NCBI RefSeq assembly: GCF_900115735.1 | Contig: NZ_FOXO01000005.1 | Location: 1-64,000 of the forward strand | DNA: 64,000 nt | Direction: 5' to 3' | Source: Butyrivibrio proteoclasticus | Lineage (GTDB): Bacteria > Bacillota > Clostridia > Lachnospirales > Lachnospiraceae | Part shown: one piece after another, positions 56,761-57,793 of the stretch | Layout of the letters: each line of letters begins with the position of its first letter | How positions within the stretch are numbered: the stretch's first letter is position 1 | Translations under genes and position numbers: made by a program | The notes under the pieces: generated by a model | What the model was told of the DNA's origin: nothing | Databases searched by the model: none | Seen by the model: only the letters and a program-made list of their open reading frames with translations

Positions 56761-56881
56761 GTACAACGCTCTATATCAGCCTTAAATATGCACATAAGTG
56801 TGTTTTTTCACTATATTTTGCTTTTTTGGCAATTTATGTTAATATGCACTAGTGACTTTTTATTTGGAAAGGAAAAGAATA

Positions 56882-57793
56882 ATGAAAATTGCAGTTACTT
56901 ATGAAAACGGTGAAGTTTTCCAGCACTTTGGACATACAAGCGAGTTTAAGATTTATACAGTAGAGGAAAAAAAAGTCGTATCCTCTGAGATAATAAGCTC
57001 AAACGGAAGCGGTCACGGTGCTTTAGCCGGACTTCTTGGCGATAAGGGAATTGATGTTCTTATCTGCGGCGGAATCGGCGGAGGAGCTTTTTCAGCTCTT
57101 GAAGAGAACGGCATTGAAGTATGCGCCGGAACATCCGGAAATACTGATGAAGTAGTAGAAGCTTACCTTAGCGGAAACCTTGTGAGCTCTGGTGTAAATT
57201 GCGACCACCACGGTGAGGGCCACACATGTGGCGACCACGAGGATGGACATAGCTGCGGACACCATGATGAAGGTGGTTGCGGAAGCGACTGCGGAGATGA
57301 AGAAGGCGGTTGTGCTTCAGGTGGCTGTGGCGGATGCAGCGGTTGCCATTCAGCTCCTTCATTCGAGGGAAAAAATGTTGGCAAGACATGCCGTACACAC
57401 TACATTGGTACTTTCAACGACGGAACAAAGTTTGACTCATCCTATGACAGAGGAGAGCCTCTTGAGTTCGTATGTGGCGCAGGCATGATGATCTATGGAT
57501 TTGACAAGGCTGTTGCTAACATGAACGTAGGTGAGACACTCGATGTGCATCTCATGCCTGAAGAAGCTTATGGAGAAGCAGATCCTACAGCTGTCTTCAC
57601 TGTAGAGATTGCTGAGCTTCCCGGTTCAGAGGACCTGTCAGTTGATCAGAAAGTTTACCTTCAGGATATGTACGGAAGACCATTCCCTGTTAAAGTTGTA
57701 GGTAAGACTGATACAACTATCACATTAGATGCCAACCATGAAATGGCTGGCAAAGAGCTTAATTTCAAGATTGAACTTGTAGAAGTTAAGTAA
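56882..57793 (+). CDS. NifX-like domain, His/Cys-rich linker and FKBP-type prolyl isomerase fusion
   Basis: 303 residues from ATG 56882 (AAGGAAAAG upstream). Residues 1-104 match the dinitrogenase Fe-Mo-cofactor/NifX fold (MKIAVTYENGEVFQHFGHTS, ICGGIGGGAFSALEENGIEV). Residues 107-156 are a metal-binding tract with 9 Cys and 8 His. Residues 160-303 are a SlyD-like FKBP (HYIGTFNDGTKFDSSYDRGE, YGFDKAVANMNVGE, insert-in-flap region, DANHEMAGKELNFKIELVEV). SlyD proteins combine prolyl isomerase with Ni/Zn binding for metalloenzyme maturation. Here the metal tract lies between the domains, suggesting a combined metal-cluster or nickel chaperone. It overlaps the convergent serine dehydratase gene by 8 bp. 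Confidence 0.88.
   Translation: MKIAVTYENGEVFQHFGHTSEFKIYTVEEKKVVSSEIISSNGSGHGALAGLLGDKGIDVLICGGIGGGAFSALEENGIEVCAGTSGNTDEVVEAYLSGNLVSSGVNCDHHGEGHTCGDHEDGHSCGHHDEGGCGSDCGDEEGGCASGGCGGCSGCHSAPSFEGKNVGKTCRTHYIGTFNDGTKFDSSYDRGEPLEFVCGAGMMIYGFDKAVANMNVGETLDVHLMPEEAYGEADPTAVFTVEIAELPGSEDLSVDQKVYLQDMYGRPFPVKVVGKTDTTITLDANHEMAGKELNFKIELVEVK

Follow-up and report, generated by a model that had tools for sequence, protein, structure and literature searches.

A Di-Nase domain and a SlyD-type prolyl isomerase joined by a His/Cys-rich tract in Lachnospiraceae: a candidate metal-handling foldase

A single intact open reading frame of Butyrivibrio proteoclasticus encodes a Di-Nase domain (PF02579), a tract rich in His and Cys, and an FKBP_C domain of the SlyD type, bearing out the architecture of NifX fold, His/Cys tract and SlyD-like isomerase given in a preliminary description of this DNA. 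The gene lies in a stretch of 64,000 nucleotides (NCBI RefSeq assembly GCF_900115735.1, contig NZ_FOXO01000005.1, positions 1 to 64,000), hereafter called the window (Table 1). We propose, with moderate confidence, that the protein is a cytosolic metal-handling foldase, that is, a metallochaperone that would buffer ions of the Ni/Zn type and perhaps a Fe-S-type cluster. Butyrivibrio, Pseudobutyrivibrio and Blautia are prominent anaerobes of the gut and rumen; Ech hydrogenase, CODH and urease are examples of the metalloenzymes found in many of their relatives. To our knowledge, little is known about the movement of metals inside these cells. A widely conserved chain combining a metal tether with a foldase is a concrete candidate for such movement and is open to expression and testing.

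Table 1. Features of the fusion gene, in positions of the window
Feature	Position	Strand	Basis
Whole fusion gene, 303 aa plus stop	56882..57793	+	ATG start, translates without a stop; homologue alignment
Probable ribosome-binding stretch GGAAAGGA	56866..56873	+	Purine-rich, read from the sequence
Di-Nase / NifX-like domain, residues 1-104	56882..57193	+	PF02579; 1o13/1t3v, 2yx6, 1eo1; Foldseek 2yx6; pLDDT
His/Cys/Gly/acidic tract, residues 105-160	57194..57361	+	Opens with conserved CDHH, closes with CGGCSGCH; predicted disordered
SlyD-type FKBP prolyl isomerase with insert-in-flap domain, without C-terminal metal tail, residues 161-303	57362..57790	+	PF00254, phmmer, Foldseek

Reading frame and domain architecture

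A GTG at 56852 would be a mechanically possible longer start; homologues align from the position of the ATG at 56882, a few of them with Leu/TTG there, and most of the homologues displayed also have a purine-rich stretch 5' of the start codon. Twenty-one other proteins of the same genus align with the window protein over its whole length at 63-79% identity, and the fusion frame is stop-free in 80/80 loci of the named collection, these being the best 80 of at least 555 confirmed relatives, a ranking that favors full-length matches. The 22 of 37 genus genomes that carry the fusion also have it stop-free. Because of these whole-length homologues and stop-free loci, a frame error joining two genes, the objection that the preliminary description had raised against its own reading, was ruled out; a frame or assembly error of this kind is vanishingly improbable, and nothing was found in its favor. 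A Butyrivibrio sp. MAG carries a 98% identical protein, and comparison of the window protein with PHROGs gave one weak match. We assume that sequence databases already contain the fusion, filed with generic names.

At the N-terminus, PF02579 matches residues 9-96 (E 7e-22; 78 bits vs a gathering cut-off of 26.3). The solved Di-Nase proteins nearest by sequence are 1o13/1t3v, 2yx6, 1eo1 and 1rdu, followed weakly by the ORP protein 2wfb. In an AlphaFold2 model built from 43 natural sequences, successive blocks of ten residues in this domain have pLDDT of 82-96 as far as residue 100, and Foldseek matches the model to 2yx6 (TMt 0.85). The preliminary description had spoken of a cofactor-binding NifX fold, of which the PF02579 domain and its fold stand. 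The NifX label itself is too specific, because the equivalog TIGR02663 scores 15.2 bits vs an NCBIfam cut-off of 112 while PF02579, a broad family, fits well and is far over its own. The best NCBIfam E-value belongs to the MrpORP model (residues 1-100), whose 86.3 bits fall far short of the 450 required by its cut-off, and a Pfam scan of the window protein found no P-loop family, so that it falls outside the MrpORP class of P-loop NTPase plus Di-Nase. Residues H15, H45, C62, C107 and H109 are kept in 127/127 fusion domains (near-copies are included among the rows) and H110 in 124/127, the remaining three being alignment gaps; H18 is replaced by K or R in 56/127. The window sequence QHFGHT lacks both cysteines of the MrpORP motif CXHFGHCE, and the fusions keep HFG and, mostly, CDH.

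At the C-terminus, PF00254 (FKBP_C) matches residues 166-242 (E 4e-21, far over the Pfam cut-off). In phmmer searches, SlyD-type FKBPs with an insert-in-flap (IF) domain cover this second domain to its end (5i7p over 166-302), and the top Foldseek matches are the FKBP-IF/SlyD structures 5i7p, 4odm and 3luo. FKBP domain and IF insert together place it among SlyD-type FKBPs; the SlyD equivalog PRK10737 of NCBIfam scores 58.8 bits vs a cut-off of 174. A C-terminal metal-binding tail is often, but not always, present in the SlyD family. Here the sequence and structure matches along 166-303 reach the end of the chain, which closes with the FKBP fold and bears no such tail, and the contrast drawn earlier between the C-terminal tail of SlyD and a tract bridging two domains holds. 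The residues Y174, F184, D185, I204, Y230 and F295, which we take to be equivalents of the FKBP12 active site, are invariant in two overlapping sets of 22 and 43 aligned fusions, and the putative PPIase site is kept. For the whole chain, AlphaFold2 predicts confident domains (mean pLDDT 81.5; pTM 0.42) with no fixed arrangement between them.

The His/Cys tract

From C107 to H156, the chain holds nine Cys and eight His within 50 residues, exactly the count first reported. Their sum of 17 is the highest for any segment among the 96 stop-to-stop frames of at least 100 aa in the window, and the runner-up value of 13 occurs in two frames with a non-coding look. Residues 110-156 have pLDDT below 50 and are predicted to be disordered. 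The tract could be parsed in 75/80 named fusions; five were dropped because the search pattern failed on them, and these are His/Cys-rich too. Among the 75 parsed tracts, all from the best 80 of at least 555 relatives, length is 25-70 residues (median 40), with 4-10 Cys (median 6), 5-17 His (median 7) and 3-19 Asp+Glu. CDHH or CNHH opens 73/75 of them, starts that the parsing pattern favored. In several of 13 tracts displayed, (E/D)GHSCGxH-like units are repeated in tandem, reaching about five or six copies in one protein (L114); others, that of the window included, are Cys-rich towards the end. The make-up stays His/Cys-rich while length and order change.

The window tract appears to be composed of two halves, each of which occurs elsewhere beside its own domain, because its His-rich start is similar to the tails on stand-alone Di-Nase proteins (for example, CSHH...GHSCGxH) and its Cys-rich end is the part retained by SlyDs with a Cys-rich head. 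Neither half was seen in ten other SlyD-only proteins, nine of them read by eye.

Distribution and origin of the fusion

The mapping of the fusion that had been suggested earlier shows it to be widespread in Lachnospiraceae, where it is no rarity, and rare elsewhere. Within Butyrivibrio, the full fusion is present in 22/37 genomes, 20 of them with a single match and two with overlapping or adjacent fragments of the same reading frame. Five others carry a SlyD with a Cys-rich head and no Di-Nase domain, one of which (L025, G031) runs off the contig end, and ten have neither, several of the 37 being incomplete. In the family sample, the fusion is found in at least 67 of 397 genomes, about one in six. 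Of these, 58 are single matches and nine were split by the aligner, six of these with their two fragments next to each other and three (G288, G418, G434) accepted on an open frame of at least 300 aa alone. All of the best 80 of at least 555 named relatives span the fusion, and they come from Butyrivibrio, Pseudobutyrivibrio, Blautia, Mediterraneibacter, Lachnoclostridium and others; for a few fusion-bearing MAG records the title names Synergistes, Solobacterium or Oscillospiraceae, which is taken as unreliable. Outside Lachnospiraceae, the full fusion occurs in three genomes (G1013, G1136, G1160) of the 386 searched in a class-wide sample, family members included, and in one (G812) of 378 in a phylum-wide sample.

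A single origin of the Di-Nase part is supported by its tree, in which the fusion domains form one clade (support 97/96) present in 97% of bootstrap trees. This tree sets 45 fusion rows, drawn at random after removal of identical rows, against 17 stand-alone and eight DUF134-linked rows labeled by reading and pattern; L162 is possibly mislabeled, which leaves the fusion clade unaffected. In the SlyD tree (132 rows, 140 columns, midpoint root), 10 stand-alone and five Cys-headed SlyDs are scattered among the fusions in several places, giving eight label changes, at least three of them forced by starred branches; seven loci in which the pattern recognized one half were labeled fusion by hand from full-length matches. 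Because SlyD-only forms nest among fusions, this tree, within the limits of its few columns and midpoint root, suggests one fusion event followed by repeated loss of the Di-Nase part, which is apparently dispensable in several lineages. The natural variants, namely Cys-headed SlyDs, Di-Nase domains with a His/Cys tail, and tracts of varied length, provide a ready-made test series.

Genomic context and metalloenzymes

In the window, the fusion presumably has as neighbors an SPFH/flotillin-like gene in divergent orientation and two convergent genes that we take to resemble L-serine dehydratase. Clustering of the ORFs of the 80 loci revealed no conserved neighbor, the largest true-neighbor cluster comprising eight loci, in a survey in which many contigs were short and neighbors could be missed. 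The fusion was recognized as the cluster anchor in 65/80 loci, its place having been taken in others by an antisense ORF that overlaps it; that ORF forms the next cluster (11 loci). Upstream, Rfam gave no regulatory RNA element at the gathering threshold. The Fur-box consensus matched 2/40 upstream regions with three mismatches and none better, and few 10-mers, some of them -10-like, were common to upstream regions in a set of 20 from the genus, so that neither approach revealed a recognized metal operator.

The preliminary description had pointed to nitrogenase and hydrogenase maturation partners. For nitrogenase there was no support: nifD (TIGR01282) is over its cut-off in 0/67 fusion genomes, and work on the cofactor FeMo-co is therefore unlikely. 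Weaker nitrogenase-like matches occur in 21/67 fusion genomes, the B. proteoclasticus source genome not among them. In another genome of the genus, an adjacent pair of nitrogenase-like subunits, well below the nifD cut-off, was noticed (G030 C13:128625-131416), with similar pairs in G199, G213, G288, G289 and G395.

The partners of nickel enzymes gave a mixed picture. By profile search, the source genome has two HypA and one HypD; its ORFs were read as an Ech-type cluster with HypF, HypC, HypD and HypE (contig C46, L159), and HypB adjoins one HypA (L140, by ORF reading). Strong HypA matches are found in 28/67 fusion genomes vs 91/330 others (Fisher p 0.028; kinship uncorrected), counting the 119 genomes with strong matches of 123 over the tool cut-off and taking the weakly matching fusion genome G406 (E 3.8e-6) as negative. 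Among HypA-negative genomes, CODH is over its cut-off in 16/39 with the fusion vs 17/80 without (p 0.030; kinship uncorrected), the controls being the first 80 in a random draw of 90 from the 232 HypA-negative fusion-negative genomes, with SlyD-only genomes left out. Strong urease (>180 bits) is present in 11 of the 39, all CODH-positive, a count that has no control set. Strong LarA (>100 bits, stricter than the tool's own cut-off) is present in 5/23 fusion genomes without HypA or CODH vs 7/57 controls. Nickel-enzyme genes are thus weakly enriched in fusion genomes, but in 18/67 neither HypA nor LarA matches strongly and CODH does not exceed its cut-off, and one of these, G291, is a single contig rated 100% complete. 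HypD, found in 19/28 HypA-positive fusion genomes, does not follow the fusion across the genus (19/22 genomes with the fusion, 4/5 with SlyD only, 8/10 with neither). Butyrivibrio NC3005 (G024) carries the fusion without a HypD match and is reported to lack every Ech subunit (PMC4478896). On this evidence, a dedicated hydrogenase role for the fusion is unlikely.

Two arrangements in the source genome were recorded alongside. The HypB-HypA pair (L140 8177-13275) lies in a row with ORFs read as membrane-protein-like and as large ferredoxin/FAD-type oxidoreductase-like, away from the Ech/HypFCDE cluster. The second HypA (L139 19363-19713, G000 C34) is about 25.6 kb downstream of the fusion and has partition- and replication-like ORFs upstream.

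Proposed function

Under the proposal of a metal-handling foldase, partly folded clients would dock on the insert-in-flap domain of the SlyD module, which would isomerize their prolines. The flexible His/Cys/acidic tether, often made of HxCG-type units, would capture and buffer Ni2+, Zn2+ and perhaps Cu+ or Fe2+, and the Di-Nase domain, with H15, H45, C62, C107 and H109 as putative ligands, would hold or sense a metal or a small Fe-S-type cluster. Tethering the three parts would place metal loading and client folding on one molecule. E. coli SlyD with its C-terminal tail is thought to act alike, and the fusion would have a further metal site at the opposite end. This model is supported because the domains are intact and confidently modeled, the putative active-site and ligand residues invariant and the tract make-up kept. 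The nickel binding reported for H. pylori SlyD and the role of the E. coli SlyD tail in hydrogenase maturation (PMC7840056), together with the cluster reported for the Di-Nase domain of MrpORP (PMC6345978), also count in its favor. Against it stand the absent CXHFGHCE cysteines, the variable H18, the lack of a conserved neighbor, Rfam element or metal operator in the surveys above, the apparent dispensability of the Di-Nase part in several lineages, and the reported dispensability of the SlyD tail in H. pylori (PMC7840056). A bolder version, a single-chain metallocluster foldase of Lachnospiraceae in which the Di-Nase domain carries a Fe-S or mixed-metal cluster, the tether relays metal ions and SlyD inserts metal or cluster into clients as they fold, is improbable; if true, it would define a class of chaperone coupling proline isomerization to cofactor insertion in gut anaerobes.

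Other readings were weighed. The protein could store Fe-S/thioferrate or carry a complex cluster in the manner of IssA or MrpORP, the SlyD part serving to dock clients. Relatives in PF02579/IPR003731 are reported to bind Fe-S or Mo/Cu clusters (PMC5524996, PMC6345978), and the conserved Cys/His set of the Di-Nase domain and the MrpORP E-value point the same way, but the acidic His/Cys-rich tract is unlike the cationic, aromatic, Gly-rich tail reported for IssA, the motif cysteines of MrpORP are missing, and this reading is rather unlikely. The nickel chaperone of the preliminary description, taken as dedicated to [NiFe] hydrogenase (Ech), CODH and/or urease in place of a tailed SlyD, draws on the Hyp and Ech genes of the source genome and on the HypA and CODH associations. 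These associations are weak, however, 18/67 fusion genomes lack the nickel markers, and HypD does not follow the fusion, so that such a role is possible but not specifically supported, and in its dedicated form unlikely; a broader metal role may apply. A plain buffer or detoxification protein, with a metallothionein-like tract on two carrier domains, is favored by a tract whose length varies while its make-up is kept, yet both folded domains and the putative PPIase site are conserved beyond what passive carriers need, which makes it very unlikely.

Comparison with known systems

A literature search aimed at the fusion and at SlyD in this family found no description of the fusion, in agreement with the earlier remark that it was not a form known as characterized. 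The part labeled DUF134 below is the HTH-like region of L028, L029, L160, L161, L163 and others, a label that we assume to be correct. Two kinds of clostridial proteins have a Di-Nase domain about 50-67% identical to that of the fusion and a like His/Cys tail: stand-alone PF02579 proteins of about 140 aa, and DUF134-like-PF02579 proteins of about 245-270 aa with an HTH-like N-terminus. Neither has a SlyD domain. The DUF134-like architecture, possibly a metal- or cluster-sensing regulator, is also carried by at least two fusion genomes (G453, G406).

SlyD resembles the fusion in its FKBP and IF fold (along 166-303), its attached metal-type His/Cys tract and its putative active site; in the fusion, however, the tract precedes the FKBP domain inside the chain and is joined to a Di-Nase domain. 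H. pylori SlyD is reported to bind nickel and to have a tail with five His and five Cys, which is dispensable for the effect of SlyD on nickel metabolism, whereas hydrogenase maturation in E. coli depends on the SlyD tail (PMC7840056). Given this difference, a metal tract on SlyD need not mean one enzyme. IssA of Pyrococcus furiosus is described as a PF02579/IPR003731 domain followed by a tail predicted to be unstructured, but that tail is cationic and aromatic/Gly-rich, holds the one Cys of the protein, and is not followed by an FKBP domain (PMC5524996). In MrpORP of Desulfovibrio, a Di-Nase domain with CDH at its end is likewise fused to another module, in this case a P-loop NTPase; it is reported to bind a [3Fe-4S] cluster, for which the authors propose the CXHFGHCE and CDH motifs as ligands (PMC6345978). 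Set beside these systems, the fusion consists of known parts in a new arrangement, with a metal tract between two domains, and is spread over many Lachnospiraceae.
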